DNA from: Mesorhizobium sp. 113-3-3
GTDB taxonomy: Bacteria > Pseudomonadota > Alphaproteobacteria > Rhizobiales > Rhizobiaceae
Direction: 5' to 3'
Length of the DNA: 64,000 nt
Assembly (NCBI RefSeq): GCF_016756495.1
Contig: NZ_AP023243.1
Coordinates: 6,328,501 to 6,392,500, forward strand
In this document: in pieces, positions 18,501-62,280 of the stretch
How the letters are laid out: the number at the start of each line of letters is the position of its first letter
Numbering within the stretch: the stretch's first letter is position 1
Translations under genes and position numbers: made by a program
The notes under the pieces: model-generated
What the model was told of the DNA's origin: nothing
Seen by the model: only the letters and a program-made list of their open reading frames with translations
Database searches by the model: none

Positions 18501-21500
18501 CCGACGACACCGCAACCGTGACGACGGCACACGCCCAGGGACCGGACAACACGGTCTATGAGGCAGGCCTCAACCCGAACGGTTCGGACGCGGCCTCCAG
18601 CAGCGAGACCAGCACCGGTTCCTTCGCCATCTCGGCGACCGACGGCATCCAGAACATCGTCATCGGTGGCACCACCTACACCATGGCCGAGATCCAGGGC
18701 TTCAACGGCACCCAGACCATCAACACCGGCGAAGGCGTGCTCACGCTCACCGGCTACACCGGCGACGCCCATTCGGGCACGGTGGCCTACAGCTACACGC
18801 TGAGCGCAACCATCGACAATGACAGCAAGGTGCCGACCGGCAACGACAGCGTCAACGGTTCCGGCTTCAACGACAGCGTCGCGCTCACCGTCAACGGCGT
18901 CGGCGGCACCACCGCCAGCGACAATCTCATCGTCCATGTCGTCGACGACGTGCCGACGGCCCACGATGACGGCCCCTACGCGGTCGTCGAGGACGGCGTC
19001 AGCACGGTCTCGGGCGATGTGCTTGCCAATGACGCCTCCGGCGCCGATGCCCCCAAGGGCTTCGTGGCCTGGTCGGGAAGCGACGCGGCGACGATCGCCA
19101 CGCTCAACACCTACGGCTCGCTGACGCAAGGCGCCAACGGCAGCTGGAGCTACGTGCTCGACAACTCCAAGGCGGCAACCCAGGCGCTGACCTCGGGCAG
19201 CCATCTGAGCTACGACCTGCATTACACGATGACGGACGCCGACGGTGACACCTCGCCGGCAACGCTGACCATCACCATCACCGGCACCGACGACACCGCA
19301 ACCGTGACGACGGCACACGCCCAGGGACCGGACAACACGGTCTATGAGGCAGGCCTCAACCCGAACGGTTCGGACGCGGCCTCCAGCAGCGAGACCAGCA
19401 CCGGTTCCTTCGCCATCTCGGCGACCGACGGCATCCAGAACATCGTCATCGGTGGCACCACCTACACCATGGCCGAGATCCAGGGCTTCAACGGCACCCA
19501 GACCATCAACACCGGCGAAGGCGTGCTCACGCTCACCGGCTACACCGGCGACGCCCATTCGGGCACGGTGGCCTACAGCTACACGCTGAGCGCAACCATC
19601 GACAATGACAGCAAGGTGCCGACCGGCAACGACAGCGTCAACGGTTCCGGCTTCAACGACAGCGTCGCGCTCACCGTCAACGGCGTCGGCGGCACCACCG
19701 CCAGCGACAATCTCATCGTCCATGTCGTCGACGACGTGCCGACGGCCCACGATGACGGCCCCTACGCGGTCGTCGAGGACGGCGTCAGCACGGTCTCGGG
19801 CGATGTGCTTGCCAATGACGCCTCCGGCGCCGATGCCCCCAAGGGCTTCGTGGCCTGGTCGGGAAGCGACGCGGCGACGATCGCCACGCTCAACACCTAT
19901 GGCACGCTGACGCAAGGCGCCAACGGCAGCTGGAGCTACGTGCTCGACAACTCCAAGGCGGCAACCCAGGCGCTGACCTCGGCCAGCCATCTCAGCTACG
20001 ACCTGCATTACACGATGACGGACGCCGACGGCGACACCTCGCCGGCCACGCTGACCATCACCATCACCGGCACCGACGACACCGCGACGGTGACGACGGC
20101 ACAGGCTCAAGGCCCCGACAACACGGTCTTCGAGGCCGGCCTCAACCCGAACGGTTCGGACGCCGCCTCCAGCAGCGAGACGAGCACCGGCTCCTTCGCC
20201 ATCTCGGCAACCGACGGCATCAAGGACATCGTCATCGGTGGCACCACCTTCAGCATGGCCCAGATCCAGGGCTTCAACGGCACCCAGACCGTCAACACCG
20301 GCGAAGGCGTGCTCACGCTCACCGGCTACACCGGCGACGCCCATTCGGGCACGGTGGCCTACAGCTACACGCTGAGCGCAACCATCGACAATGACAGCAA
20401 GGTGCCGACCGGCAACGACAGCGTCAACGGTTCCGGCTTCAACGACAGCGTCGCGCTCACCGTCAACGGCGTCGGCGGCACCACCGCCAGCGACAATCTC
20501 ATCGTCCATGTCGTCGACGACGTGCCGACGGCCCACGATGACGGCCCCTACGCGGTCGTCGAGGACGGCGTCAGCACGGTCTCGGGCGATGTGCTTGCCA
20601 ATGACGCCTCCGGCGCCGATGCCCCCAAGGGCTTCGTGGCCTGGTCGGGAAGCGACGCGGCGACGATCGCCACGCTCAACACCTATGGCACGCTGACGCA
20701 AGGCGCCAACGGCAGCTGGAGCTACGTGCTCGACAACTCCAAGGCGGCAACCCAGGCGCTGACCTCGGCCAGCCATCTCAGCTACGACCTGCATTACACG
20801 ATGACGGACGCCGACGGCGACACCTCGCCGGCCACGCTGACCATCACCATCACCGGCACCGACGACACCGCGACGGTGACGACGGCACAGGCTCAAGGCC
20901 CCGACAACACGGTCTTCGAGGCCGGCCTCAACCCGAACGGTTCGGACGCCGCCTCCAGCAGCGAGACGAGCACCGGCTCCTTCGCCATCTCGGCAACCGA
21001 CGGCATCAAGGACATCGTCATCGGTGGCACCACCTTCAGCATGGCCCAGATCCAGGGCTTCAACGGCACCCAGACCGTCAACACCGGCGAAGGCGTGCTC
21101 ACGCTCACCGGCTACACCGGCGACGCCCATTCGGGCACGGTGGCCTACAGCTACACGCTGAGCGCAACCATCGACAATGACAGCAAGGTGCCGACCGGCA
21201 ACGACAGCGTCAACGGTTCCGGCTTCAACGACAGCGTCGCGCTCACCGTCAACGGCGTCGGCGGCACCACCGCCAGCGACAATCTCATCGTCCATGTCGT
21301 CGACGACGTGCCGACGGCCCACGATGACGGCCCCTACGCGGTCGTCGAGGACGGCGTCAGCACGGTCTCGGGCGATGTGCTTGCCAATGACGCCTCCGGC
21401 GCCGATGCCCCCAAGGGCTTCGTGGCCTGGTCGGGAAGCGACGCGGCGACGATCGCCACGCTCAACACCTATGGCACGCTGACGCAAGGCGCCAACGGCA

Positions 21501-24500
21501 GCTGGAGCTACGTGCTCGACAACTCCAAGGCGGCAACCCAGGCGCTGACCTCGGCCAGCCATCTCAGCTACGACCTGCATTACACGATGACGGACGCCGA
21601 CGGCGACACCTCGCCGGCCACGCTGACCATCACCATCACCGGCACCGACGACACCGCGACGGTGACGACGGCACAGGCTCAAGGCCCCGACAACACGGTC
21701 TTCGAGGCCGGCCTCAACCCGAACGGTTCGGACGCCGCCTCCAGCAGCGAGACGAGCACCGGCTCCTTCGCCATCTCGGCAACCGACGGCATCAAGGACA
21801 TCGTCATCGGTGGCACCACCTTCAGCATGGCCCAGATCCAGGGCTTCAACGGCACCCAGACCGTCAACACCGGCGAAGGCGTGCTCACGCTCACCGGCTA
21901 CACCGGCGACGCCCATTCGGGCACGGTGGCCTACAGCTACACGCTGAGCGCAACCATCGACAATGACAGCAAGGTGCCGACCGGCAACGACAGCGTCAAC
22001 GGTTCCGGCTTCAACGACAGCGTCGCGCTCACCGTCAACGGCATCGGCGGCACCACCGCCAGCGACACTCTCCTCGTGCATGTCGTCGACGATGTGCCGA
22101 CGGCCCATGCCGACACCGGCAACGTCAATGAAGGCGCGCTCTTGACCGTGGCGGCCGCGGCGGGCGTGCTGATCAATGACGTGGCCGGCGCCGACGGCGC
22201 CACCATCGACGGCGTGCGTGCCGCCGGCGGCAACACCACAACAGCCGTATCGGGCGGTGTCGGCACCGACATTGCCGGCCTGCACGGCACGCTGCACCTC
22301 AATGCCGACGGCTCCTACACCTATCAGTCGACGGCCAACAACATCGCCGCCAACACCACCGACGTGTTCGTCTACACCATCAAGGACGGCGACGGCGACC
22401 TATCGACGACGACACTGACCATCAACCTGACCGATGTAACCATCACAGCACCGGCCGACAGCGACGTGACGGTCAATGAAGCCGCACTGGACCTGGTAAA
22501 GGCTGGTGCCGATCTGGCGGCCGGTACAGTAACCGGCTCGCTGCCGGCCCTGATCACCGAGACCGACGCGACCAACCAGCTCAACGCCTCGGGCGGCGTC
22601 GGCACGCTTCACTACCAGCTGGTCAGTGGCGGCAACGCGGCAACCGCTGGTACCTACGGCACCATCCAGGTCAATGACGACGGCACCTATGTCTATACGC
22701 TGACCAAGCCGTTCGACACCTCACCAGACGCCAACAATGGCACCAACATCGAGAGCGCAGAGAACTTTACCTACAAGGTCACCGACGGCAACGGCAACAC
22801 CAGCACCGGAACCATCACCGTCAACATCGTCGACGATGTGCCCACGGCAAACGCCAATTCGGGCAACGTCAACGAAGGCGCGCTGCTGACCGTGACGGCC
22901 GCGGCCGGCGTGCTGGTCAATGACGTGGCCGGCGCCGATGGTTTCGCCGCCAGTGGCGGCGTGGTCGGCGTACGAGCCGCGGCCGGTGACACCACCACGG
23001 CGGTGACGACCGGCGCGGGCACCGACATTGCCGGCCTGCACGGCACGCTGCACCTCAATGCCGACGGCTCCTACACCTATCAATCGACGGCCAACAACAT
23101 CGCCGCCAACACCACCGACGTGTTCGTCTACACCATCAAGGACGGCGACGGCGACTTGTCGACGACGACGCTGACCATCAACCTCACCGACGCAGGCCTC
23201 GTCGCTCCCGCCGACAATGACGTGACCGTCAACGAAGCCGCCCTCGACACCACGACATCGGGTGCCGACCTCGCGCACGGCACGGTCACCGGCTCGCTGC
23301 CCAGTTCGACCGCCGAGACCGATGCCTCAAACCAGCTCAACGCCTCGGGTGGCGTCGGCGCGCTGACCTATACCGCCCAGACCATCGTCGGCACCTACGG
23401 CACGATCCACATCAACACCGATGGCAGCTATGTCTACACGCTGACGAGCAACTATCTGAATGCGACGGCGAACAATGGCGTCCAGACCATTTCCGGCCTG
23501 GAGAACTTCACCTACACGGTGACCGACAGCGTCGGCAACACCGCCACCGGTTCCATCACCGTCAACATCATCGACGACGTTCCGACGCTCGGGGCCTTCA
23601 CCGCTGCCACGATCCCGAACGAGATCGGATCCGTCGCCGGTCCGTTCTCACTGGTCCCGGGCGCAGACGGTATCGACCATTTCAGCATTACGGGGCCTGC
23701 GATCACGGGGATCACTTACAGCACGACAGTCGCAGCCGACGGCACGACGGTCCTGCACGGAAAGTCGGGGGTGACGGAGGTCTTCTCCCTCACCGTGAAG
23801 CCGGACGGAACGTATCAGTTCGATCTCGTCACGCCGCAGGCATCGACCGTGGTCACTTCAAGCCTGGCCAACCTGGCCTCAGGCAACAACAACTGGACGG
23901 AATTGGCAGACGGCAGCATCGAGTTTTCTTCGCCGGGCAGTGTCAATTCGTCCACGCAAGGCTTCGGCGTCGGCAACAATTTCCTGAACAGTGGTGAAAC
24001 CTTCACCATGGAGTTCCATACCGCCGGAACCGGAGTGGGTGTCGACAACACACCCGCGAGCAATCCAAACTTCGTCGACGCCGTCAATTTCACCGTGAAT
24101 TCGGCCAATGCAGGCGATGCGGTCACGTGGACGGCCACCGACACGGTGCACAACGTCACACAATCTGGAACGGCTTTCGTCGACGCCTCGGGAACACATC
24201 TGCTGATCGACCCGACGATCTCGTTCAACCAGCTTGTCGTCACAGGAGCCACCTCCGGCGAGTCCATGCGACTGACCGCGGCGGCGGTGACGCAGACCAT
24301 CCTGCCGTCAGACCTGAACCTGCAATTCCAGGTTACGGCCACGGACAAGGATGGAGACACCACCGGCGCGCAGTCTCTGAATGTTCACGTGGTGGCAGGG
24401 GACTCATCGGGCAACTTCACCCTTACGGGCACGGCCGGCAACGATGTGATAGCCTCGAGCACACATACAGACACGATGACAGGCGGAGCCGGCGCCGACA

Positions 24501-25843
24501 TTTTCATCATCGGGACCGGCGAATCGACCCCAGTCATAGGCGGAGCCGGCAATGCCGGCACGATCTCCGGCTATGACATCATCACCGACTTCGTGGCCGG
24601 GACCGACAAACTGACCCTGCCCGGCACGCTGGTGGCCGCCACTGCCGGCCTCGTCGACGGCGCGGGAGATTCCGTCCTGACAATCGGTGGAGACACGGTC
24701 GAGTCCCATTCGGTCACGAACGGCATCGCCAGTTTCTTCGGCACCGATGCCGGCACCTCGCCCCTGGCGATCACCACGACATCGGGCGTGGCCGCGGCGG
24801 TCCAGTATCTCATGGGCACCGACATCGGCAATGCAGGCGCAACGCTCGCATTCACGGCAACGATCTCCGGGGTCAATCACACCTATGTCTATACCCAGAC
24901 AACCACCAATGCCGGCGTGGGAGCGCTGGTCGATCTTCAGGGGGTCACGGTCGCGAACCTCAACACCTTGATCGGTGGATCTGTCGATCCCGTCATCCTC
25001 GATCTGAACCACAATGGCTTCACCTTCTCCGATGTCAGCCATGGCGTTCAGTTCGACATGAACGGCGACGGCACCAAGGAGCAACTGGCCTGGAACACGT
25101 CGAAGGACGGCATGCTGGCGGTCGATCTCAACCATGACGGCAAGATCGACGACGGCACCGAACTGTTCACGCCGAACTTCGGTGGCGGGCATTTCGCCAG
25201 CGGGGCGGCCGCACTGGCTTCGCTCGACAGCAACCATGACGGCGTCATCGATCACAACGACGCGGCGTACAGCAGCCTGCTGATCTGGAAGGACGGCAAT
25301 GCCAATGGCACCAGCGACGCCGGAGAACTGTCGAGCCTTGCCGACAACGGGGTTGCCTCCATCAGCACGGCAGCGCACCCGGCTGTCGGCGAAATCGACG
25401 GGCAGGCCGTGACCGGCAACGGCACCTTCCAGATGGCCGACGGCACGACCGGCAACTACGTGGAGGTGGAACTCGATACATCGCTGGTTGCCCCGGCGCA
25501 GCCGTCGGTGGCCTCCGATGGTACCAGGACATTCGCCATCGGCTCGCTCGAAGTCGCCGATCTGATCGCCGACTTCCACGACGGCGCCAATGGCGACAAG
25601 ATCGATCTCTCCGCGCTGCTGAAAGGCCTGGCCGGCGTCACCGATCTCGAAGCCGGCGGCTTTGTGGAGATCTCGCAGTCTTCCGCCAATGCGGCGAATG
25701 CCGAAGTCAAGGTCGACACAAATGGCGGTGGCGACAACTACCATACGGTCGCCGTGCTGGAGAACTATACGTTCCACAGCGCTGCCGAAGCGGTGAAAAT
25801 ACTTTACGATGACAGCCACGGCACCAAGACGGACGTGGCCTAA
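15503..25843 (+). CDS. Giant LapA-like type I secreted adhesin with VCBS/T1SS-143 repeats
   Basis: About 3446 residues from ATG 15503, seven bases after GGAGGGG; an in-frame TTG at 15497 is a poorer start. Residues 1-110 are Ala/Pro-rich. Residues about 75-200 match the retention-type module of secreted biofilm adhesins (VVKLP, DGALNVPTFIIGDVEVPRVAL, AGGDFSVP, LLPPTDLAF). A first T1SS-143 repeat lies near 250-350. Residues 626-2197 hold six 262-residue tandem repeats, each a VCBS/cadherin-like part (DDVPTAHDDG) plus a T1SS-143 part. Two diverged ~248-residue repeats follow, then degenerate RTX sequence (GGAGADIFI), three EF-hand-like loops (DLNHDGKIDDGTE, DSNHDGVIDHND, DGNANGTSDAGE) and a C-terminal secretion signal. 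It should be held in the outer membrane and released by the adjacent LapG-like protease. Confidence 0.9.
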   Translation: MTTSNDLDTVSHSWDEHSEHNGLQAQIQVAEASAQKPAPAAAEPVPVDVGSGTPVKPEAPAEAKAPAATAPHEYVADASNVVKLPANVSIDNIKVDGHNLVLEQADGSVIVIKDGALNVPTFIIGDVEVPRVALIAALEASHVDVAFGADGSISAGPGGSPASAGGDFSVPPGGIGDGFGLSALLPPTDLAFGQPEHRELFPSLIDRPVSVVATSLLTPDQAASETGLNGGPSQSPGSDAPSNAETSGVGSITVDAPDGIGSIVINGVAVTAAGQQIPGQFGYITILSFDPNTGHIDYDYTVTQSVTHPDQTTGFDPNDTVPDNFSVTVTDVDGDSASTTFAVAIVDDVPTAVADTDSITEGGTVNGNVIAGLGSDGNPAGADTKGADGASVSGVTGAGATTVVGGDFHVVGQYGTLTLSPDGTYSYVANANINNASPVTDTFTYTLKDGDGDTSQTTLKITISDGIDPSVLTNAVITVDEAGLGTVNATGSAAATNVEDGSGTVSFHAGSDNITGVAFTSVAGITADVNGVAGADIVWTLVGPTQITGSINGVDAIHIDLVASSLPILAGTDGSATVNVTLLDNFPHPDAGGQNVINLTGINVVATDTDGSQASATVQINVVDDVPTAHDDGPYAVVEDGVSTVSGDVLANDASGADAPKGFVAWSGSDAATIATLNTYGSLTQGANGSWSYVLDNSKAATQALTSGSHLSYDLHYTMTDADGDTSPATLTITITGTDDTATVTTAHAQGPDNTVYEAGLNPNGSDAASSSETSTGSFAISATDGIQNIVIGGTTYTMAEIQGFNGTQTINTGEGVLTLTGYTGDAHSGTVAYSYTLSATIDNDSKVPTGNDSVNGSGFNDSVALTVNGVGGTTASDNLIVHVVDDVPTAHDDGPYAVVEDGVSTVSGDVLANDASGADAPKGFVAWSGSDAATIATLNTYGSLTQGANGSWSYVLDNSKAATQALTSGSHLSYDLHYTMTDADGDTSPATLTITITGTDDTATVTTAHAQGPDNTVYEAGLNPNGSDAASSSETSTGSFAISATDGIQNIVIGGTTYTMAEIQGFNGTQTINTGEGVLTLTGYTGDAHSGTVAYSYTLSATIDNDSKVPTGNDSVNGSGFNDSVALTVNGVGGTTASDNLIVHVVDDVPTAHDDGPYAVVEDGVSTVSGDVLANDASGADAPKGFVAWSGSDAATIATLNTYGSLTQGANGSWSYVLDNSKAATQALTSGSHLSYDLHYTMTDADGDTSPATLTITITGTDDTATVTTAHAQGPDNTVYEAGLNPNGSDAASSSETSTGSFAISATDGIQNIVIGGTTYTMAEIQGFNGTQTINTGEGVLTLTGYTGDAHSGTVAYSYTLSATIDNDSKVPTGNDSVNGSGFNDSVALTVNGVGGTTASDNLIVHVVDDVPTAHDDGPYAVVEDGVSTVSGDVLANDASGADAPKGFVAWSGSDAATIATLNTYGTLTQGANGSWSYVLDNSKAATQALTSASHLSYDLHYTMTDADGDTSPATLTITITGTDDTATVTTAQAQGPDNTVFEAGLNPNGSDAASSSETSTGSFAISATDGIKDIVIGGTTFSMAQIQGFNGTQTVNTGEGVLTLTGYTGDAHSGTVAYSYTLSATIDNDSKVPTGNDSVNGSGFNDSVALTVNGVGGTTASDNLIVHVVDDVPTAHDDGPYAVVEDGVSTVSGDVLANDASGADAPKGFVAWSGSDAATIATLNTYGTLTQGANGSWSYVLDNSKAATQALTSASHLSYDLHYTMTDADGDTSPATLTITITGTDDTATVTTAQAQGPDNTVFEAGLNPNGSDAASSSETSTGSFAISATDGIKDIVIGGTTFSMAQIQGFNGTQTVNTGEGVLTLTGYTGDAHSGTVAYSYTLSATIDNDSKVPTGNDSVNGSGFNDSVALTVNGVGGTTASDNLIVHVVDDVPTAHDDGPYAVVEDGVSTVSGDVLANDASGADAPKGFVAWSGSDAATIATLNTYGTLTQGANGSWSYVLDNSKAATQALTSASHLSYDLHYTMTDADGDTSPATLTITITGTDDTATVTTAQAQGPDNTVFEAGLNPNGSDAASSSETSTGSFAISATDGIKDIVIGGTTFSMAQIQGFNGTQTVNTGEGVLTLTGYTGDAHSGTVAYSYTLSATIDNDSKVPTGNDSVNGSGFNDSVALTVNGIGGTTASDTLLVHVVDDVPTAHADTGNVNEGALLTVAAAAGVLINDVAGADGATIDGVRAAGGNTTTAVSGGVGTDIAGLHGTLHLNADGSYTYQSTANNIAANTTDVFVYTIKDGDGDLSTTTLTINLTDVTITAPADSDVTVNEAALDLVKAGADLAAGTVTGSLPALITETDATNQLNASGGVGTLHYQLVSGGNAATAGTYGTIQVNDDGTYVYTLTKPFDTSPDANNGTNIESAENFTYKVTDGNGNTSTGTITVNIVDDVPTANANSGNVNEGALLTVTAAAGVLVNDVAGADGFAASGGVVGVRAAAGDTTTAVTTGAGTDIAGLHGTLHLNADGSYTYQSTANNIAANTTDVFVYTIKDGDGDLSTTTLTINLTDAGLVAPADNDVTVNEAALDTTTSGADLAHGTVTGSLPSSTAETDASNQLNASGGVGALTYTAQTIVGTYGTIHINTDGSYVYTLTSNYLNATANNGVQTISGLENFTYTVTDSVGNTATGSITVNIIDDVPTLGAFTAATIPNEIGSVAGPFSLVPGADGIDHFSITGPAITGITYSTTVAADGTTVLHGKSGVTEVFSLTVKPDGTYQFDLVTPQASTVVTSSLANLASGNNNWTELADGSIEFSSPGSVNSSTQGFGVGNNFLNSGETFTMEFHTAGTGVGVDNTPASNPNFVDAVNFTVNSANAGDAVTWTATDTVHNVTQSGTAFVDASGTHLLIDPTISFNQLVVTGATSGESMRLTAAAVTQTILPSDLNLQFQVTATDKDGDTTGAQSLNVHVVAGDSSGNFTLTGTAGNDVIASSTHTDTMTGGAGADIFIIGTGESTPVIGGAGNAGTISGYDIITDFVAGTDKLTLPGTLVAATAGLVDGAGDSVLTIGGDTVESHSVTNGIASFFGTDAGTSPLAITTTSGVAAAVQYLMGTDIGNAGATLAFTATISGVNHTYVYTQTTTNAGVGALVDLQGVTVANLNTLIGGSVDPVILDLNHNGFTFSDVSHGVQFDMNGDGTKEQLAWNTSKDGMLAVDLNHDGKIDDGTELFTPNFGGGHFASGAAALASLDSNHDGVIDHNDAAYSSLLIWKDGNANGTSDAGELSSLADNGVASISTAAHPAVGEIDGQAVTGNGTFQMADGTTGNYVEVELDTSLVAPAQPSVASDGTRTFAIGSLEVADLIADFHDGANGDKIDLSALLKGLAGVTDLEAGGFVEISQSSANAANAEVKVDTNGGGDNYHTVAVLENYTFHSAAEAVKILYDDSHGTKTDVA
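17378..22093 (+). repeat. Six tandem 786-bp repeats inside the adhesin gene
   Basis: Copies start at 17378, 18164, 18950, 19736, 20522 and 21308, each exactly 786 bp (262 codons). Copies 1-3 share one version (TYGSLTQ, HAQGPDNTVYEAG, TTYTMAEIQ). Copies 4-6 share a second version (TYGTLTQ, QAQGPDNTVFEAG, TTFSMAQIQ). Within each block the DNA looks almost identical; the main differences are at the outer edges of copies 1 and 6. This points to recent amplification or gene conversion, and copy number is likely to vary between strains. Confidence 0.95.
22094..23578 (+). repeat. Two diverged ~745-bp repeats of a second type
   Basis: Copies 22094-22837 and 22838-23578 encode about 248 and 247 residues. 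Both start with VPTA..NVNEGALLTV and share GTDIAGLHGTLHLNADGSY and the KDGDGDLSTTTLTINLTD block, yet differ at many positions between these blocks. This repeat family differs from the 786-bp one but has the same two-domain plan. Confidence 0.8.
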
Positions 25844-53045: not shown

Positions 53046-53121
53046 GCCCAGATAGCTCAGTTGGTAGAGCAGCGGATTGAAAATCCGCGTGTCGGTGGTT
53101 CGAATCCGCCTCTGGGCACCA
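53046..53121 (+). tRNA. tRNA-Phe (GAA), island insertion site
   Basis: Acceptor GCCCAGA pairs with TCTGGGC; D-arm TAGCTCAGTTGGTAGAGC; anticodon stem GCGGA/TCCGC with loop TTGAAAA (GAA); T-arm GGTGGTTCGAATCCGCC; encoded CCA to 53121. 76 bases. An integrase gene starts 212 bp downstream in the same direction, so the tRNA 3' end is the probable attachment site. No second copy of the 3' end is visible inside the window. Confidence 0.95.
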
Positions 53122-53289: not shown

Positions 53290-53333
53290 GGAGATCCTGA
53301 TGGTATCGATGCAGCCAAATGGAGGTCCCGAAA

Positions 53334-54644
53334 ATGGCTCTTTCCGACGTAAAATGCCGTAATGCCCGACCCGCTTCCAAGCTCGTGAAATTGTCTGACG
53401 GTGGCGGGCTCCAGCTTTGGGTGCAGCCTACCGGATCTCGCCTATGGCGCCTCGCCTATCGTTTTGGCGGCAAGCAGAAGCTTCTGGCGTTGGGCAGCTA
53501 TCCCCTCATCTCCCTCGCTGAGGCACGCGAGGCGCGCGATACCGCCAAACGTCTCCTCCTACGTGGCATCGACCCCGCACAGGAGCGTAAGTCGCAAAAG
53601 GCTTCGGCGGAGGACACCTTTCGCTCAATCGCGGAGGACTATGTCGACAAGCTGAAGAAGGAGGGACGTGCCGACCGGACCATCACCAAGGTCAAATGGC
53701 TGCTCGACTTTGCCTATCCAACGTTTGGGGACAAAAGCGTTCGGGAGATCGATCCGGCCACAATTCTTGCCGCTCTCCGCAGCGTGGAGGTTCGTGGTCG
53801 ATACGAGTCGGCCAGGCGAATGCGCTCCACCATCGGCAGCGTGTTTCGATATGCAATCGCAACCGCACGCGCCGATGTAGATCCGACGATCGCCCTGAGG
53901 GGCGCACTCGTCGGTCCGACGGTCACGCCCCGTGCCGCGGTTACCGATCCTAAGGCCTTGGGAGGCTTGCTGAGGGCGATTAATGCATTTGACGGACAGC
54001 CTACAACCCGAGCCGCTCTGAAGCTGATGGCCCTGCTATTTCCCCGCCCCGGCGAGCTGCGCGCGGCCGGATGGGACGAGTTCGATTTCGAAAGCTCGGT
54101 GTGGAGCATCCCTGAAGGACGCATGAAGATGCGACGGCCGCACCGCGTACCTCTTTCCACGCAGGCCGTCAGCGTCCTGACCTCACTTAGAGAAATCTCT
54201 GGTGGTGGATCGCTGTTGTTTCCTAGTGTTCGATCGGGTTCGCGTCCGATTTCCGACAACACGCTTAACGCCGCCCTTCGCCGTATGGGCTATGGCAAAG
54301 AAGAAGCTACCGCGCACGGCTTTCGAGCAACGGCATCAACTCTGCTAAACGAATGCGGCAAGTGGCACCCGGACGCCGTAGAGCGGCAGCTGGCCCACAT
54401 TGAGAACAACGACGTTCGGCGCGCCTATGCCCGGGCAGAGCACTGGGAAGAGCGCGTCAGGATGATGCAATGGTGGGCCGATTATCTGGATGAACTCGAG
54501 AGCAAAAACTCGCGGGTGGTCTCAATCGGGGGACGCGAGGCAAGCCTGCTGTCCATACATCCTCGCGAGGGTCTAGTTTGGAAGCCAACAGCGACGGTTC
54601 GCCAAACGACGAGACGAACCTCCAATCTCCGAAAATCACACTGA
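53334..54644 (+). CDS. P4-type tyrosine integrase
   Basis: 436 residues from ATG 53334, seven bases after GGAGGT; an upstream ATG at 53319 overlaps that site. Residues 1-90 match the Arm DNA-binding domain of P4-like integrases (LSDGGGLQLWVQPTGSRLWRLAYRF, in part). The catalytic domain has Arg238 (RPGELR), Lys265, His328/Arg331 (AHGFRATASTLLNE), His355 (LAHIE) and Tyr365 (RRAYARAEHW). All residues for recombination are present, so it may be active. It integrates and excises the island at tRNA-Phe. Confidence 0.95.
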   Translation: MALSDVKCRNARPASKLVKLSDGGGLQLWVQPTGSRLWRLAYRFGGKQKLLALGSYPLISLAEAREARDTAKRLLLRGIDPAQERKSQKASAEDTFRSIAEDYVDKLKKEGRADRTITKVKWLLDFAYPTFGDKSVREIDPATILAALRSVEVRGRYESARRMRSTIGSVFRYAIATARADVDPTIALRGALVGPTVTPRAAVTDPKALGGLLRAINAFDGQPTTRAALKLMALLFPRPGELRAAGWDEFDFESSVWSIPEGRMKMRRPHRVPLSTQAVSVLTSLREISGGGSLLFPSVRSGSRPISDNTLNAALRRMGYGKEEATAHGFRATASTLLNECGKWHPDAVERQLAHIENNDVRRAYARAEHWEERVRMMQWWADYLDELESKNSRVVSIGGREASLLSIHPREGLVWKPTATVRQTTRRTSNLRKSH

Positions 54645-55143
54645 ACCCCGTCGAAAACACCGAAACTGGGCGACCAATGTTGCAGGCCCGGAGGGTCATC
54701 GTTTTCCACAGGAAATCAATTGGCCACACATTTCCTTCGTATTCTCTCGTATGGTCTGGCGAACCTAAGGACCAGGAGGAGGACTAGTATTCCCTCCGCG
54801 GTGTCTCGTCGTCCACAAGAAGGGTCGATTAACCCGTGACGAACGTGGCTGGTTTGGGGCCGTGTCCAGACGGTCCGGTTGCGGCAAACTCGCGGCAGTA
54901 AGCTGCCATTCCGCAGCCGACGCCATTGCGGTCATTTGCTCTTCTTCGGAACAACGACCGGGCCTAAAGTTGCCCCTTACATTGGGATTTGAGAAGTCGA
55001 AGGGTGTGAGAGCTGATGTGCCTACCTTGGCGCTGATCCTCGTGACCCGTCCTGACAATGGACAAGATTGCAGTCTTACAAATTTTTCTACAATCAGTCG
55101 TACCGAAAAACTATTGGATGCACTATTGGGAGATGCACTGCTA
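54645..55143. other. Non-coding stretch after the integrase
   Basis: 499 bp. Open frames exist on both strands (for example 54765-55241 minus) but none has a start with ribosome binding site or recognisable sequence, and the plus-strand one merely extends the DUF3800 frame upstream. Nothing else recognised. Confidence 0.5.
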
Positions 55144-56073
55144 ATGAGGATCATTTTTGCCTGCGACGAGTCAGGTGCGAAGGGGTACGCGGATCGCGAC
55201 GAGGCATTCGACGGTGAAGTTGGCCTCTTCGCAGGTGTCATGGTGCCCGAAAGCCATCTTGCAGCGGTAGAGGCCGACCTGCAAATCGTCGTGCAGAGGT
55301 ATCAGACTGACGCTCAGAAGCTGCATATCGCCGACTTACCGCCTGACCGACAGGGAGCTCTGCGCGATGACATCTATGCGGTCATTCGCAAACATCAACT
55401 TCCTTGCTTTTGGTACGCCATCCACGTCGCCGGCTTTCATGCCTGGCACCTCAGCCAGATCGAGGCACGCAAGCAGGCGAAGGCCCTGCCCGCCGCCGCT
55501 TCAAGCCAACCTCCGCGCTATAAGGGAGGCAGTCCAAGAGAAACCCCGGATTCGTTGCACGTCGCGATTTTTGACGGTCTCTACGCCCATCTTGTTGCCT
55601 TCCTCGAGGAGCGCGGCTGCAAGGATGTCGAGATCGAGGTGCGGACCGACCGTGTGGACAATCCTATTGTTAAGGATTTCATCGCGGTCGCCGAAAGACT
55701 ATTGGGCGACATGACTTTCACTAGGACGTCCCGCCGCTTCGATACGGTTACCAAGACGTTGGTCGATAGGCAAATCCGCATCTGTACAGTTCTCCCTCCC
55801 GAGTTGCAGATTGAGCTGCAGGTGAGGAGCCTCGAGATCAACGCTGTCGATCACGACAGTGACGGTCTGGTGCTGGCTGCAGACGTGCTGGCAAACAGTC
55901 TCGCCTACCTTTTCAAACAGCGCATCGGCACCGAGAAGTACACTAGGCTGAACTGGCCCGATGCCGTGACCGGCCACCCCTTGGAGGAAAATCTACTGAC
56001 CTTCAACAACTGGGGCGACGGCGACCTCGTCGGGGACGTTCTCTACCGGCATCCTAAGGCGGTTGCTGGCTAG
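55144..56073 (+). CDS. DUF3800 family protein
   Basis: 309 residues from ATG 55144; the longer frame from 54862 has no family-like sequence before this point. DUF3800 hallmarks: FACDESG at residues 6-11 (Asp-Glu of an RNase H-like fold), an internal EVRTDRVDNP block and DGLVLAADVLANSLAYLF near the C-terminus, where family members carry the final acidic residue. DUF3800 proteins are frequent cargo of phages and defence islands; nuclease activity is suspected for the family but not certain. It stands alone, on the same strand as the integrase. Confidence 0.75.
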   Translation: MRIIFACDESGAKGYADRDEAFDGEVGLFAGVMVPESHLAAVEADLQIVVQRYQTDAQKLHIADLPPDRQGALRDDIYAVIRKHQLPCFWYAIHVAGFHAWHLSQIEARKQAKALPAAASSQPPRYKGGSPRETPDSLHVAIFDGLYAHLVAFLEERGCKDVEIEVRTDRVDNPIVKDFIAVAERLLGDMTFTRTSRRFDTVTKTLVDRQIRICTVLPPELQIELQVRSLEINAVDHDSDGLVLAADVLANSLAYLFKQRIGTEKYTRLNWPDAVTGHPLEENLLTFNNWGDGDLVGDVLYRHPKAVAG

Positions 56074-56243
56074 ACCTGCCACGGCGCGGGGGACCGCTAC
56101 TGGCGCGCAGCAGTCGCTAATGCCTCTACATAGGACTCACCCCAGTCCGGCCGTAGGCGTCCGGCCGCCTTGCTGCACATTGGGAAATGGACGCTTCGAG
56201 CTTCCCGAGCGCTCCGATCGAAACTGAAGGATCTCAAACTGTA

Positions 56244-57113
56244 TCAGCCGGCAGCGCCGTGAGGCTCGCGAACTTGCATCTCCACTTGCAAGCCGGCGGC
56301 AGCAGCCATGTTGACCAGTGCGTCGAGGCCGAACAGGTCGACTTTGCCGCGGGTAAGGTCTGAGATCCGCGGCTGGGTCACCCCAAAGACTTTGGCCGCT
56401 TGAGACTGACTTAAATGCGTGCGGGAAATATGCTCTTTGAGCGCCGTCATGAGCACCGCGCGTAACTTTGCGCTCTCGCTCTGTTGCGGGCTCGGCTCGG
56501 CAGGTGCCGCCGGCTCCAGATCCTTCACCGGGCCTGCAGACGATTCGCTATTCGCACCGATGTCCAGCAAGAATTGCTCGTTGGCGATACTGGCGATTTT
56601 CGCGGTGAGGCCGATCTTCTCTTCCGCCTTTGCGCGAGCATGATCCGACATGAAGGCGAGAAGGCGCTCCAAGCCACCCTTGTCCGATACGGTTACAAAA
56701 TCCTTGTTCTTGTTCACGAAGACCACGGACTTCTTCTTTTCTCGAAGAAGCTCGATGACATTGCTTAGTGTGCCGGTGCTTTTGCAATCCCAGACCATGA
56801 GGCCATAGTCGCTGTTGCGCGCCATCTCCAGGTCTTTGGCGGTAAAATAGGCGCGCGTGCCAGCCTTCGCCTTCGAGACGACCCTGTGGACCGGCCATTC
56901 TGCGACATTGTTCCGGGGCGAATCGCCGGTGCAATACACAGTCACCTTTCTGGCTTGGTACTGCTGGAGGCATTCTTGAATTGAGGTATCGGCACCATCG
57001 GCATCTCCGACCACGACGTCGAAGTCTGAAGATACGATCTTGTTGATCCTATCCGCCACCTTCTCATGCAGGCGACTGATGGAGATTGATCCGGCGATGA
57101 AGACAGTGGTCAT
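56244..57113 (-). CDS. SLOG-like nucleotide-sensor domain fused to an antitoxin-type HTH
   Basis: 289 residues from ATG 57113, 4 bp after the phosphoribosyltransferase gene. Residues 1-135 look like a Rossmann-type SLOG/DUF2493-like domain: FIAGSISISRLHEKVADRI, VVVGDADGADTSIQECLQQY (the GDADGAD loop at 36-42) and MARNSDYGLMVWDCKSTGT with KKSVVFVN. Residues 135-225 are a charged linker. Residues about 227-280 are an XRE/HTH_37 helix-turn-helix as in HigA2-like antitoxins (SQSQAAKVFGVTQPRISDLTRGKVDLFGLDAL). It could sense a nucleotide and control transcription. The SLOG call is by pattern, not by search. Confidence 0.65.
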   Translation of the reverse strand: MTTVFIAGSISISRLHEKVADRINKIVSSDFDVVVGDADGADTSIQECLQQYQARKVTVYCTGDSPRNNVAEWPVHRVVSKAKAGTRAYFTAKDLEMARNSDYGLMVWDCKSTGTLSNVIELLREKKKSVVFVNKNKDFVTVSDKGGLERLLAFMSDHARAKAEEKIGLTAKIASIANEQFLLDIGANSESSAGPVKDLEPAAPAEPSPQQSESAKLRAVLMTALKEHISRTHLSQSQAAKVFGVTQPRISDLTRGKVDLFGLDALVNMAAAAGLQVEMQVREPHGAAG

Positions 57114-57117
57114 GGCA

Positions 57118-57708
57118 TTACTTCCATGTGATCGAAGCGGCGTAGATATGGTTGATTTTCTTGTACGTGCGCAGCGTTTTGCAGACGGCGTCCATCGTGG
57201 CGCCCGTGTCGAAAAGGTCATCAAGGACAAGCGCGTTCCAACACCCTTCGTTGGTGATGGACGGGTTGATGCTGAACCGTCCCTCCAATGCGGCGTCCTT
57301 AGCCTCGCGGCCATGCAGATTCTTGAGCTGCGGGCTACCTTCCGGCGCTGGCGCCTTGACGATGATATCATCGAACACCGGCGTTTTCGTCAGTTTGCCG
57401 AGTTCGTTGGCGATCTCATTGACCGGCTGGCGCGCGCGCACCGTGGAGGCCGGCATCGGGATAATAAGGCCAATCTTGCCGAACAAAGGCAGCAAGGATT
57501 GCTGCACTTGCGCTGCGAGCGCTTGCACCTGATTCCAATCGGCTCGATATTTAAGCTGGTATAACGCCTCGCCGGGCTCTGAGCGCGTCGTGTCAAATCG
57601 AGGGTGGCCGTATTCGTCGTCGCCCAGGTAGACGCTCGACAGCGTATGCTTGTGCAGCGCGTAACCGAGATCCCAACTGCCTTCGAGCTTTCGAACCTGA
57701 ACCTTCAT
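57118..57708 (-). CDS. ComF-like phosphoribosyltransferase
   Basis: 196 residues from ATG 57708. The PRPP-binding loop is clear: WNALVLDDLFDTGATMDAVCKTL (residues about 155-177, two Asp then TGAT), preceded by LIIPMPASTVRARQPVNEIANEL, the ComF-type substrate region. It lacks the N-terminal zinc finger of ComF. The enzyme should act on PRPP and a base or nucleoside. It is the first gene of a two-gene operon with the SLOG-HTH protein, which suggests that one makes or consumes a nucleotide the other senses. Confidence 0.75.
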   Translation of the reverse strand: MKVQVRKLEGSWDLGYALHKHTLSSVYLGDDEYGHPRFDTTRSEPGEALYQLKYRADWNQVQALAAQVQQSLLPLFGKIGLIIPMPASTVRARQPVNEIANELGKLTKTPVFDDIIVKAPAPEGSPQLKNLHGREAKDAALEGRFSINPSITNEGCWNALVLDDLFDTGATMDAVCKTLRTYKKINHIYAASITWK

Positions 57709-57764
57709 GATGATGAGTATTCCTTGCAGGCCCTGGGAACGCCAACTGCGCGCCCACCTTATAT

Positions 57765-57780
57765 ATACAAAATATTGTAT
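57765..57780. promoter_or_regulatory. Inverted repeat in the divergent promoter region
   Basis: ATACAA, AATA, TTGTAT: perfect 6-bp arms in an AT-rich patch between the phosphoribosyltransferase operon and the helicase operon, 57 bp before the ATG of the former. Candidate operator for the HTH part of the SLOG-HTH protein. Confidence 0.4.
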
Positions 57781-57853
57781 GAGACGCAATGGCCCCGGGG
57801 CGGCTCGTCAATGGCATCCGGAGCTCACGGCGCCAGCGTAGTCACGTCGGGGA

Positions 57854-57891
57854 TTGACCAATTGCGTAAGGTTGCATAATGTTGCCGTATG
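57854..57891 (+). promoter_or_regulatory. Promoter-like boxes and 10-bp TTGC repeats at the helicase start
   Basis: TTGACC (57854-57859), 15-bp spacer, CATAAT (57875-57880), then ATG at 57889, so the transcript may start within a few bases of the start codon. No Shine-Dalgarno sequence is present. TTGC recurs at 57862, 57872 and 57882, exactly 10 bp apart and overlapping both the -10 box and the start codon, as expected for a regulator binding one face of the helix. Confidence 0.45.
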
Positions 57892-59943
57892 TCACAGAAT
57901 GATGCCCCCGATTTCCTGACCCTTGCCGAGGCCGCAGAGTATGTTGGCGTCTCGAAGGACACGCTTCGACGGTGGGATGCCTCGGGCAAGCTCAAGCCCG
58001 TGCGCCGTCCAGGGAGCGGCTATCGCTTCTATCGCCGGCCTGACCTTGAGCCCTTCCGCCTCGAGTACCGGCGCGCCGAACAGGCCGCCAACGAGCCGGA
58101 CCATATGTTTCAGACCCTGACCGCAGATATTGAAGCGAACCCCAAGATACGCGAGCCGCAACAGGGCGCGCACCGGGCAGTGCGGACCCACTTCGAAGCC
58201 TCGAACGAGCCGGTGATCCTGCAGATACCCGTCGGATGCGGAAAGACTGGCGTCATCGCGACATTGCCCTTCGGCGTCGCCAAAGGGCGCGCGCTCGTCA
58301 TCACACCGAACCTGACGATACGGTCGGGTGTCGCGGAGTCGCTCGACATCAGCAACCCGAAGAATTTCTGGCGGCGGACAGGGGCGCTCCACGATTTTTC
58401 CGCGGGGCCATTCCGCGCTGTTTTGGATGGCGTTGATGCCAATCTCCACGACTGCAACGCAAGCCAGTTCGTCGTGACCAACATCCACCAGTTGGCCAGC
58501 TCGGCCGATCGTTGGCTCCCGCAGTTTCCGCCGAACTATTTCGACATGATTATGATCGACGAGGGCCACCACAACGTGGCGCCGAGTTGGGCGAAGGTCT
58601 TCGACCGCTTTCCGAACGCCAAGGTCGTCAGCCTGACGGCGACGCCGTTCAGGGGTGACGGAACGCGGCCGGTCGGCAAGGTGATCTATCGCTACCCGTT
58701 CACTCGGGCGATGGTGAAGGGGTACATCAAGCAGATTCACTCTCGGAACGTCGCGCCGTCAGAGCTGTCCTTCACCTACCGTGACGACATGAAGCGGCAC
58801 ACACTGGAAGAGGTGTTGGCCTTGCGAGAACATGCCTGGTTCCGGCGAGGTGTCGCGTTGGCGCCCGAGTGCAATCGTCACATCGTTGATGCCAGCATCA
58901 AATATCTCCAGGAGCTGCGAGAGCGCAGCGGTGTCCGTCACCAGATCATCGCCGTTGCCTGTTCCGTCGACCATGCCCGCCAAGTGCGAGGGCTGTACGA
59001 AGAGCGGGGCCTGAAGGCGGCCGAAATCTATGGTGAGATGGATCGTGAAAAGCAGGACGTCGTTCTTGCCGATCTGCGCAGCGGCAAGCTCGATTGTATC
59101 GTGCAGGTGCAGATGCTCGGGGAGGGCTTCGATCATCCGCCTCTGAGTGTCGCGGCCATCTTCCGGCCGTACGCGAGCTTGTCGCCTTACATCCAATTCG
59201 TCGGGCGCGTGATGCGCGTCGTCCACGAGGCGAAGCCGGACCACCCGGACAACCACGCATTCGTGGTCTCCCATGTGGGCTTGAACACCGACGCCCATTG
59301 GGACGATTTCCGGGAGCTCGACTTCGACGATCAGGCGATGGTCAAAAAGTGGCTGGAGGCCGGTGACGAGAATGGCGATGGCGACGGCTCAGGAGAGCCC
59401 CGTCGCTTCGATATCGGTATGCTGGTCGATAACGAGATCGTCGGCTCATTCATCAATCGGTCGTTCCTTGATCCCGAAGACGATCGCGTCCTCGAAGAAA
59501 TGCTGGATCATGAGATCGGCGCAGGCCTCCGCCTGCGCGACGTCATCGCGAAGGACAAGCTCCGGGAGACGCTGCGCCGAAAGCAAGCGGAGCTGTCCCA
59601 GGTCAGCAGTTCCGGTGACCTTCCGGTGCAGCCGCAGGCGCGGCGGGTCGGCGCGCGCAAGCGGCTTTCCGAACGCACAGGCTCCGTGGTCGCCCGCATT
59701 CTCAAGGACCTGAAGCTCTCGCCCGCCGGGCGCGAGGTCGGCCAGCGAGACAAGACCGTCGCGGGGCGTGACAACCGGGCCGCCGTTACATCGCTGCTGA
59801 ACAAGGCGATCAACGAACATCTCGGGATCAAGTCCGGGAGCCGCAAGGCACCCGACGCGGGCGACAATGAGGACGCTTTGGCTGCGCTCGATATGCTGGG
59901 AGACAACGTGCGCGACGCCCTGAAAGGGAAGAACGATGGCTAA
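57889..59943 (+). CDS. SF2 DEAD/DEAH helicase with N-terminal MerR/excisionase-type HTH
   Basis: 684 residues. Residues 9-57 form a MerR/excisionase HTH (FLTLAEAAEYVGVSKDTLRRWD, then GYRFYRRPDLEPF). Helicase motifs: Walker A PVGCGKTG (114-121), motif II DEGHH (224-228), motif III LTATPFRG (249-256), motif VI IQFVGRVMRV (435-444). The last 200 residues include an acidic Gly/Asp linker and a basic region. DNA or RNA unwinding is expected; the fused HTH may target specific DNA or regulate its own promoter. The next gene overlaps its stop, so an operon with the two small Cys/His proteins is likely. Confidence 0.85.
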   Translation: MSQNDAPDFLTLAEAAEYVGVSKDTLRRWDASGKLKPVRRPGSGYRFYRRPDLEPFRLEYRRAEQAANEPDHMFQTLTADIEANPKIREPQQGAHRAVRTHFEASNEPVILQIPVGCGKTGVIATLPFGVAKGRALVITPNLTIRSGVAESLDISNPKNFWRRTGALHDFSAGPFRAVLDGVDANLHDCNASQFVVTNIHQLASSADRWLPQFPPNYFDMIMIDEGHHNVAPSWAKVFDRFPNAKVVSLTATPFRGDGTRPVGKVIYRYPFTRAMVKGYIKQIHSRNVAPSELSFTYRDDMKRHTLEEVLALREHAWFRRGVALAPECNRHIVDASIKYLQELRERSGVRHQIIAVACSVDHARQVRGLYEERGLKAAEIYGEMDREKQDVVLADLRSGKLDCIVQVQMLGEGFDHPPLSVAAIFRPYASLSPYIQFVGRVMRVVHEAKPDHPDNHAFVVSHVGLNTDAHWDDFRELDFDDQAMVKKWLEAGDENGDGDGSGEPRRFDIGMLVDNEIVGSFINRSFLDPEDDRVLEEMLDHEIGAGLRLRDVIAKDKLRETLRRKQAELSQVSSSGDLPVQPQARRVGARKRLSERTGSVVARILKDLKLSPAGREVGQRDKTVAGRDNRAAVTSLLNKAINEHLGIKSGSRKAPDAGDNEDALAALDMLGDNVRDALKGKNDG

Positions 59944-60178
59944 AGTCAGGGACATTCTAATCGACGTGAGGATCGAGCAGGCGCAGCGCCAGCGCAAATG
60001 TCGAAGGAACAGCTCCCACGTCATCCCGAAGGGCGAGTGGTGTCTCGTTGTTCGAACCAACGCGACCAACGATGACTACAGCTACAGCCGAGACGCTGCG
60101 AAACCCATGCTCGATGCGGCTTGGGCGAAGCTCAGGACCATCTACGAAGGACTCGGAATGTCACCGCCTGATGGCTAA
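59936..60178 (+). CDS. Small Cys/His protein after the helicase
   Basis: 80 residues; ATG lies 8 bp inside the helicase gene. It has one Cys-x5-His-x7-Cys cluster (Cys22, His28, Cys36 in RKCRRNSSHVIPKGEWCLVV), possibly a partial metal site similar in pattern to PARP-type fingers, and a helical tail. No family recognised. Overlap with the helicase argues for a linked function. Confidence 0.6.
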   Translation: MAKVRDILIDVRIEQAQRQRKCRRNSSHVIPKGEWCLVVRTNATNDDYSYSRDAAKPMLDAAWAKLRTIYEGLGMSPPDG

Positions 60179-60189
60179 AGGACGGGGGA

Positions 60190-60657
60190 ATGAGCGACGG
60201 ATACAACTTTCAGCAACTCAAGGCCGCGATTTTAGCGCTGAGCCGGGCCACTGATTGGGAAGTGGCCAAAAAGGAGTGGCGCCTCGTCGAGATTTCCGAA
60301 GCCGACGAGCCCGAGACCTGTCTGTGCGGCCATTTCCCAATCATCGAGTTGTGCACCATCTCCAATGCTACGACCCGAAAATCGGTGGACGTAGGCAACG
60401 TCTGCGTGAAGCGGTTCTTGGGTTTCCGCTCCGATTTGATTTTCCAGTCTCTGAAGCGTGTCCGAGCCGACCCAGATAAGCCGATCGGCCCGGATGCCAC
60501 CGCGTTCTTTCACGAACGCGGGGTCATCAACGATTGGGAGTATCAGTTCCAGCAGAGCACCATGCGGAAGCGCAACCTGTCTCAACGGCAGTTGGCGACC
60601 AGGCGTTCGATAAATCAGAAAGTGATTGCGGCCGTGCGGCGTCGTGGTCTTTCATAA
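60190..60657 (+). CDS. Zinc-finger-like protein of a mobile-element family
   Basis: 155 residues, GGACGGGGGA before ATG 60190, 11 bp after the previous gene. A compact metal motif is visible: Cys44-x-Cys46-x-His48, Cys55, Cys72 (TCLCGHFPIIELCTISN, then VDVGNVCVKRFLG). The CxCGHxxIxxxCxIxN...VGNxCVKxFLG pattern is familiar from uncharacterised phage and plasmid proteins. The basic C-terminus (RKRNLSQRQLATRRSINQK) suggests nucleic acid contact. Confidence 0.65.
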   Translation: MSDGYNFQQLKAAILALSRATDWEVAKKEWRLVEISEADEPETCLCGHFPIIELCTISNATTRKSVDVGNVCVKRFLGFRSDLIFQSLKRVRADPDKPIGPDATAFFHERGVINDWEYQFQQSTMRKRNLSQRQLATRRSINQKVIAAVRRRGLS

Positions 60658-61146: not shown

Positions 61147-62280
61147 ATGGCGAGGGCTCCCAGATACTTCGGCGCATGGGGCAACGTGCCCGTAGATGAT
61201 GATGTGCGGCCGTTCAGCATGATCAATCCCGTGGGGAGCAATGCCAACCGGACCAACCGCCGACATCACTTTATCTCGGCCGTCTATATGAACGGCTTCG
61301 CGGATGACCGGGGCCGAGTGCTGGCCTATCTTTGCGAGGCGCCCGAAGACCCGCTGCCGCCAATGAATCCACGGGCCATTGGTTTCGAGCGAGACTACTA
61401 TTCCCAGAAGCTGCCCGGGGGTGGTCAGGAAAACCATTGTTTCGAGGATCTGTGGAACACCATCGAGACCGGATGGCCGGAAACGGTGCGGGCGCTCGCG
61501 GCACGCCGCCTGTCGGCCGCCATCTCCTTCAACGTGCTCGGCATGCAAACGATCTTGCGCGCGCGTGTTCCGGCGACGCGCGATCGGCACGCGCTGATGA
61601 TCGAGGCCAAAATTCGCTGCGAGCACAAGATCGGCGAAGAACTCGGCGTCCTTCCTCCGCCGCTCGAGCGCTATGCGGGCCAGTTCGACACCGTGCCGAT
61701 AGGCGTCAACCCACATGAAACGCTGCTGGCAATGAAAGGTGAGTTCAAGGATTTCGGCGACCTCTGTTTCCGCCTCGGCTTCGAGGTGCTCCACAACAGG
61801 ACAAGCACGCCTTTCCTCACATCGGACAATCCGGTCTGCAGCTACGATCCGCGTCAGGCGTTCCATGCGCGTACGCCTTACGAGCATTCCGGCGAGGTCG
61901 AGCTGATCTTCCCGGTTTCGGCGCACATGCTTGTGCGCGGTTCCAGCAAGCGCGGGCCGGTGAACATGATCTCGCGCCATCGCGATATCTCCGACAGCCA
62001 CAAGGTGCGGCAACTCAATCGCACGATCGCGCAGTTTTCCTATCGCATGACCATCGGCCAGGATCGCTCTAGCGACGACCTGATCCGCGCCCATGGCGCG
62101 ATCGTGCCGACCATCACCACTAGAGTGCGGCGACTTGGGAAAGAGGTGCATATCATCTGCCGGAATGTTTTCGGTCCCCGGCCGAGGTTATCTCAATACA
62201 TCGACACGCCTGAAAAGGCCGCGCGCCTTGAGGCCAGGATGGCTGCTACATCGAGCCACGCGGACCCGATCCTCGAATGA
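61147..62280 (+). CDS. DUF4238 family protein
   Basis: 377 residues from ATG 61147 (AAGGAG 13 bases upstream); the frame is open from 60895, and ATG 61219 is another option. The family head reads NRRHHFISAVYMNGFADDRGRVLAY, the DUF4238 pattern of an N-terminal His-rich strand, and an internal TSDNPVCSYDP block is also typical. Function unknown; members are scattered in mobile regions of many bacteria. No neighbour overlaps it. Confidence 0.7.
   Translation: MARAPRYFGAWGNVPVDDDVRPFSMINPVGSNANRTNRRHHFISAVYMNGFADDRGRVLAYLCEAPEDPLPPMNPRAIGFERDYYSQKLPGGGQENHCFEDLWNTIETGWPETVRALAARRLSAAISFNVLGMQTILRARVPATRDRHALMIEAKIRCEHKIGEELGVLPPPLERYAGQFDTVPIGVNPHETLLAMKGEFKDFGDLCFRLGFEVLHNRTSTPFLTSDNPVCSYDPRQAFHARTPYEHSGEVELIFPVSAHMLVRGSSKRGPVNMISRHRDISDSHKVRQLNRTIAQFSYRMTIGQDRSSDDLIRAHGAIVPTITTRVRRLGKEVHIICRNVFGPRPRLSQYIDTPEKAARLEARMAATSSHADPILE

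Follow-up and report, generated by a model that had tools for sequence, protein, structure and literature searches.

Pairs of a phosphoribosyltransferase (PRTase) and a SLOG/DprA-type protein have been reported as toxin-antitoxin systems, with the PRTase as toxin and the SLOG/DprA-type partner as antitoxin (excerpts of PMC4670107 and PMC12593503). PsyrTA/RqlHI consists of a RecQ-like helicase fused to a PRTase toxin and an antitoxin combining a DprA/MoCo (molybdenum cofactor) fold with a helix-turn-helix (HTH), and rqlH is located upstream of rqlI (PMC4670107, excerpt). ShosTA consists of a PRTase and a DprA-like protein and belongs to the defence genes of P2-type phage hotspots. In the excerpted text of PMC12593503 (citing Pu 2025), ShosT is a phosphoribosyltransferase/pyrophosphatase disturbing purine metabolism, ShosA binds DNA and the T7 protein Gp0.7 triggers ShosTA, statements on the trigger differing between sources. 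Here, a 64,000-bp stretch of the genome of Mesorhizobium sp. 113-3-3 (NZ_AP023243.1, positions 6,328,501 to 6,392,500; hereafter the window) was analysed, in which a free PRTase gene (PRT) and a gene encoding a SLOG domain joined to an HTH (SLOG-HTH) face a helicase operon. This locus probably combines a toxin-antitoxin module of the ShosTA/PsyrTA(RqlHI)-like kind with a mobile helicase operon. PRTase-SLOG toxin-antitoxin pairs as such are known; unusual here are the HTH-bearing SLOG protein, the defined candidate operator and the joined mobile helicase operon.

The five open reading frames (ORFs) and their head-to-head arrangement proposed in the initial annotation were all recovered in the ORF list of the window, in two operons with an intervening gap of 180 bp:

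57113..56244, minus strand: SLOG-HTH, 289 aa, SLOG domain at residues 1–180 and HTH_37 at about 208–283; predicted antitoxin and autorepressor (Pfam, AlphaFold2 [AF2] model, PDB alignment)
57708..57118, minus strand: PRT, phosphoribosyltransferase, 196 aa, with the phosphoribosyl pyrophosphate (PRPP) motif DDLFDTGAT; predicted toxin (motif, PADLOC profiles)
57765..57780, no strand: palindrome ATACAANATTTTGTAT, candidate operator 5′ of PRT (shuffles, fetched loci, co-occurrence with the HTH)
57862..57885, plus strand: 10-bp direct repeats TTGC(G/A)TAA.., predicted operator for the helicase's own HTH (shuffles, kept in relatives)
57889..59943, plus strand: superfamily 2 (SF2) helicase, 684 aa, with an N-terminal MerR/excisionase-type HTH (Pfam, NCBIfam, motif alignment)
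59936..60178, plus strand: S80, small partner gene, a degenerate form of a zinc-finger-like partner (alignment of relatives)
60190..60657, plus strand: S155, four invariant Cys, present in some loci as third gene of the helicase operon (alignment, loci with and without helicase)

PRT ends 4 bp before the start of SLOG-HTH on the same minus strand, and the S80 start overlaps the helicase stop (59936 vs 59943). Chance ORFs were excluded because the window genes showed purifying selection compared to their relatives, with ratios of nonsynonymous to synonymous substitution (dN/dS) of about 0.02–0.23.

The PADLOC PsyrT model matched 55 out of 55 PRT family members and the ShosT model 53 out of 55 (expect value, E, <= 0.1), with E 1e-6 and 2.6e-3, respectively, for the window member, and PRT aligned to the PRTase part of PsyrT (profile positions 541–679 of 689). 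The match to Pfam Pribosyltran was below threshold (E 0.0011). The PRPP-binding motif claimed initially was recognized in D163 and D164, invariant in all 55 members. PRT was rejected as ComF proper (TIGR00201, E 0.0033, 17.4 bits compared to the ComF cut-off of 233.55). On an Enterobacter plasmid (L009), an insertion sequence of the IS3 family was found to split PRT, SLOG being intact.

In SLOG-HTH, the C-terminal HTH_37 was matched with E 1.1e-20 (Pfam). No convincing match to the SLOG part was found among Pfam, NCBIfam and PADLOC models; residues 2–143 matched the phage family phrog_289, labelled 'GTP-binding domain' (E 6.3e-8). The AF2 model (mean predicted local distance difference test score, pLDDT, 87.3), aligned with SLOG structures that have been solved, confirmed the SLOG fold, and together with the HTH_37 match it bore out the domain composition first suggested for this protein. 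In most loci SLOG is 183–186 aa long and lacks the HTH, and in the near-identical L008 and L044 SLOG and HTH are separate ORFs. Besides, L043 (8001–9299) carries a SLOG fused to a different C-terminal region (weak DUF5677 match), with neither HTH nor palindrome, and on a second contig of the window's own genome (L155:14055–14591) a SLOG relative of 178 aa (39% over residues 1–134) stands alone, no PRT being recognized in the 2.5 kb upstream.

The PRT-SLOG pair thus matches the ShosTA/PsyrTA/RqlHI kind, which supports the conflict-system context that had been suggested but not the statement that no described system has this set. As in PsyrTA/RqlHI, the toxin gene precedes the antitoxin gene, the partner joins a fold of the DprA/SLOG type to an HTH at the C-terminus, and a helicase is present. 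In contrast, the window PRTase is free (196 aa) with no RecQ helicase fused, and the helicase is separate, divergently transcribed, scores with RadD/phrog_16 rather than RecQ and has its own HTH; filing as PsyrTA proper was rejected on these grounds. Compared to ShosTA, the PRTase matches ShosT and a DprA/SLOG-fold partner is encoded next to it, whereas the SLOG part is little similar, lacks a ShosA-type region before the fold and carries HTH_37 at its C-terminus, and a helicase is not mentioned in the excerpted ShosTA text.

A scan of genome contigs with the SLOG alignment (best 80 of 108 relatives kept) and a viral scan (17) gave 97 loci, in 90 of which PRT evidence, some of it truncated, was found directly upstream of SLOG; none was found in six, and one was at a contig edge. 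Occurrence was patchy, often on plasmids or prophages, and SLOG matches at E <= 1e-6 were present in five of 289 genomes drawn from the class (own genome included).

The 16-bp palindrome begins 55–85 bp before PRT, and its chance expectation in the window was zero (100 shuffles). Allowing up to two mismatches, it was found in the 160 bp searched before PRT in 18 of the 19 loci where SLOG carries the HTH, but in none of 78 others, counts taken over related loci and uncorrected for kinship, with L043 (long SLOG, no HTH) among the 78 and L131 having no upstream sequence; an old promoter may be missed where PRT is truncated or absent. The exact 14-bp core was detected in 25 of 166 fetched loci, upstream of PRT every time. 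As the palindrome tracks the presence of the HTH, the HTH most likely autoregulates the PRT-SLOG operon, SLOG-HTH most likely acting as an autorepressor through predicted binding to the palindrome.

In a survey of Pseudomonas, with scoring confined to the top first-look candidates of each genome, 21 of 298 genomes had an intact SLOG; PRT was full in 14 of these and truncated or missing in seven, one of the seven defective PRTs lacking just its first ~40 residues. In a non-random scan, PRT remnants of at most 68 residues or no PRT preceded an intact SLOG in 11 of 24 Pseudomonas loci (L056, L057, L059–L061, L064, L067, L072, L075, L081 and L087). This asymmetry in decay would agree with PRT being the toxin and SLOG the antitoxin.

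The helicase showed Pfam matches to MerR/HTH_17 and ResIII/Helicase_C, and its Walker A, DE[GA]H (DEGH in the window) and motif VI residues were invariant across eight aligned relatives, in agreement with the SF2 helicase with MerR/excisionase HTH that had been proposed. Its core scored with phrog_16 (E 7.1e-52) and the RadD model (E 2.8e-22), but it was rejected as RadD proper (78.7 bits compared to the NCBIfam NF053632 cut-off of 720); it shares the core with RadD/YejH and phrog_16 phage helicases and differs from them by the added MerR/Xis (excisionase) HTH and the small partner gene. The HTH matched MerR, excisionase and BldC models. Three 10-bp direct repeats are located directly before the helicase start (chance expectation 0 in shuffles) and were kept with the helicase in L010, L015 and L153, all without PRT-SLOG. 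The MerR-like protein BldC forms cooperative multimers on direct repeats (PMC5859096, excerpt), and in Mesorhizobium the winged-HTH factor RdfS controls the excision of an element (PMC11963761, excerpt). The helicase HTH resembles this BldC/RdfS type, and the promoter repeats fit head-to-tail binding, although here the HTH is fused to a helicase and its binding is predicted. By these precedents, separate autoregulation of the helicase operon through predicted binding to the direct repeats is likely.

Helicase relatives at E <= 1e-40 were present in seven of 397 genomes of the order. The helicase faces PRT-SLOG in two of them (own genome and G537), and no such PRT-SLOG was found in the sequence examined of the other five, one being a contig end. 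Plasmid relatives adjoin Shedu, restriction genes or HipA. On enterobacterial plasmids of 5.9–10.9 kb the helicase is directly behind the replication initiator (Rep), and on other plasmids it is located away from Rep. Judged by these contexts, the helicase operon is a separately mobile unit with its own candidate operator.

In 47 of 55 helicase rows (some records twice), a small ORF begins at most 31 nt from the helicase stop, in most cases with an overlap. Outside the window clade (35 rows), a zinc-finger-like partner (C-x5-H..C-x2-C or C-x2-C..C-x2-C) was found in 24, a Cys-poor one in four and an intermediate one in two (Rhodococcus); none was found in five. CHCC-type partners follow the helicase in L111, L112, L114–L116, L118, L121, L149, L150, L157, L158, L164, L166 and L167, and C4-type partners in L012–L014, L109 and L148. 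The helicase with a small zinc-finger-like gene is, by predicted gene content, a recurrent two-gene module on plasmids, phage-like contigs and chromosomes. Neither S80 nor S155 had a Pfam match, and PADLOC gave none for S80. Distant S80 relatives retain the complete C..H..CxxC, whereas members of the window clade and their Mesorhizobium relatives no longer have the CxxC; C22 was kept in 24 of 25 aligned rows, and H28 was not kept in eight of the 25. S155 has invariant Cys at 44, 46, 55 and 72. Two small metal-site proteins had been proposed; a conserved Cys set is kept by S155 alone, and S80 is not a metal-site protein in this clade. S155 follows S80 in complete form in the window, L027, L029 and L031 and partially in L030, and it is also found in other contexts without the helicase (755 database relatives at E <= 0.001).

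PRT-SLOG facing the helicase was found in 12 distinct copies (window, L004, L005, L025–L031, L039 and L106, the same as L128), spread over several alphaproteobacterial families, mostly with different flanks; the check proposed initially, joint occurrence of the genes in different islands, came out positive for this arrangement. The alignment blocks mostly start at 56233–56276 and end at 60168 (S80) or about 60657 (S155). Exceptions are L004, which ends within a truncated helicase and misses S80, L031 (56189 to 60742) and L039 (56607–60286); the alignments of L030 and L028 were stopped by contig ends, L028 being almost without flank, and L029 has an insertion between helicase and S80. Flanks sharing at least 150 bp were long among L025, L026 and L128 and 0.2–0.35 kb between these and L005; L005 and L027 share pieces at 72–83%, and L004 and L027 share 0.2 kb. 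No common stretch of at least 150 bp was found in the flanks of the remaining copies. In the PRT+SLOG tree (92 rows), the distribution of the cassette is explained by two changes, either two separate gains or one gain plus losses, inside a 16-row clade (support 98/88) that also contains L032–L034 and L040. Between L039 and the window, synonymous divergence (dS) was 1.68 for SLOG-HTH, 1.25 for PRT, 1.13 for the helicase and 1.68 for S80, with dN/dS of 0.03–0.11. All four genes are near synonymous saturation with low dN/dS, and the union is therefore old and under purifying selection. That the four genes have stayed joined through such divergence is the best evidence for a putative working link, but two linked selfish genes would give the same picture. 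The flanks were scanned for 52 of the 73 flanking ORFs of ten copies (longest-ORF rule) and three window neighbours, with no random-flank comparison; Hachiman HamAB (L005, L029), SIR2/short prokaryotic Argonaute (pAgo) (L027) and Lamassu LmuA (L025) were detected, and the other families were metabolic genes, integrases and transposases.

Several results weigh against a ShosTA/PsyrTA-like module with a joined helicase. The decay asymmetry is small (7 vs 1, sign test p 0.07) among related loci; in two further Pseudomonas genomes SLOG is broken and without an adjacent PRT, and one has a full PRT of the family but no SLOG (14 of 15 full PRTs have SLOG). The PsyrA and ShosA models matched four and three of 57 SLOG members, respectively, both weakly (best E 0.0039 and 0.0023) and not the window member, and the SLOG Rossmann part, from residue 1, aligned to ShosA residues 130–291. 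The alignment thus begins at ShosA residue 130, SLOG having no ShosA-type region preceding the fold, and since neither this region nor a ShosA sequence match was found, the pair is called ShosTA-like, not ShosTA. For 88 of the 97 loci with SLOG, the sequence examined contained no such helicase (four with less than 500 bp before PRT), and most fetched helicase loci, on plasmids, phage-like contigs and chromosomes, are without PRT-SLOG. Homologues occurring singly with unrelated neighbours had been named beforehand as a sign against the system; this was partly seen, most PRT-SLOG loci lacking the helicase, most fetched helicases lacking PRT-SLOG and S155 also having other neighbours, side by side with the 12 joined copies. 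The toxicity of PRT, its neutralisation, the binding to the operators and a role in defence are predictions.

Because most fetched PRT-SLOG and helicase loci occur apart, the coupling may be incidental. A serious contender, at somewhat below even chances, is that the helicase operon has nothing to do with the pair beside it: as a gene set for plasmid/phage replication and maintenance, or as a defence set of its own, it would have joined PRT-SLOG and been carried along, both operons working independently. It would account for the helicases without PRT-SLOG, for their position directly behind Rep on small enterobacterial plasmids and for the separate candidate operator of each operon, but less well for the location away from Rep on other plasmids and for the 12 copies of a union that outlived much divergence, as in L039. 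A second alternative, in which PRT-SLOG would chiefly serve plasmids and islands as an addiction module and take no part in phage defence, seems rather doubtful. Copies in Methylorubrum (L006), Roseomonas (L016), Sagittula (L017) and Klebsiella (L018) do adjoin plasmid replication, partition or recombinase genes, but others adjoin the Hachiman, Lamassu or pAgo genes, and a DprA-PRTase pair was reported to protect E. coli from T7 and lambda (PMC9122126, excerpt). Addiction and phage-defence roles are compatible, and both can be served at once.

The initial annotation had proposed that the pair makes and senses a nucleotide signal with the helicase arm as effector. Nucleotide binding is known for SLOG domains, in the literature excerpts, and the helicase motifs are intact, but the published precedent assigns the toxin role to the PRTase, the Pseudomonas decay pattern points the same way, and PRT-SLOG seems to work without a helicase effector because none was found in the sequence examined of most loci; this model is very improbable. 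A ComF-like competence or nucleotide-salvage gene in a housekeeping operon, as in the automatic annotation 'ComF family protein' and the weak TIGR00201 match, is less credible still in view of the patchy, often plasmid- or prophage-borne occurrence, the score far under the ComF cut-off and the toxin-antitoxin-like operator.

For a ShosTA/PsyrTA-like module united with a mobile helicase operon in this way, the following mechanism is suggested. By precedent, PRT would be a toxin disturbing PRPP/purine nucleotide pools, and the SLOG domain would neutralise it, probably through direct binding as for RqlI. The fused HTH_37 is predicted to bind the palindrome, repressing the PRT-SLOG operon, and the MerR/Xis-like HTH of the helicase to bind the three direct repeats at its own promoter. 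The two operons would have merged into one cassette at least once, long ago, and the cassette would then have been passed on horizontally, several times ending up next to other defence systems. Most likely it would serve abortive anti-phage defence, stabilise the element that carries it, or both, with the helicase presumably acting on replication or recombination DNA. Control of the toxin by the helicase, as reported for the fused helicase domain of RqlH, is hypothetical here, and by this analogy functional coupling of the operons as a split counterpart of helicase-fused PsyrT/RqlH is plausible. The full split form, in which a mobile helicase, recruited together with its zinc-finger-derived partner, would license or trigger the PRTase toxin and SLOG-HTH in trans, linking sensing of replication/recombination DNA to a PRPP-consuming toxin, is put forward tentatively and is on balance unlikely.

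Regarding the surroundings, a tRNA-Phe (53046–53121) and an integrase (53319–54644) are present in the window, and a search up to 119 kb downstream for an exact second copy (at least 14 bp) of the tRNA-Phe and the 60 bp that follow it found none; the suggested tRNA-borne island is thus supported by the first two features but not by a second tRNA copy, and is suggestive only. A 403-aa ORF (54862–56073) between the integrase and SLOG-HTH had no match in Pfam, NCBIfam or PADLOC. Near the cassette, a DUF4238 gene (61147–62280) was detected by Pfam, and since single-gene phage defence by DUF4238 was reported (PMC9122126, excerpt), the island may carry a second defence gene. Farther away, a 3448-aa ORF (15497–25843) contains large near-identical repeat blocks with ABC-transporter-like and membrane-fusion-like ORFs nearby, and from the ORF list it looks like a large secreted adhesin with secretion genes.

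The cassette bears on how PRTase-SLOG pairs sense phage and why some carry a fused helicase. Here a free PRTase stands beside a different helicase, with separate predicted operators, in a transferable unit, which makes the role of the helicase directly testable. If the split form were true, ShosTA, without a helicase, and PsyrTA/RqlHI, with a fused one, would be states of one modular kind, and the cassette could reveal how such toxins get wired to DNA sensing.
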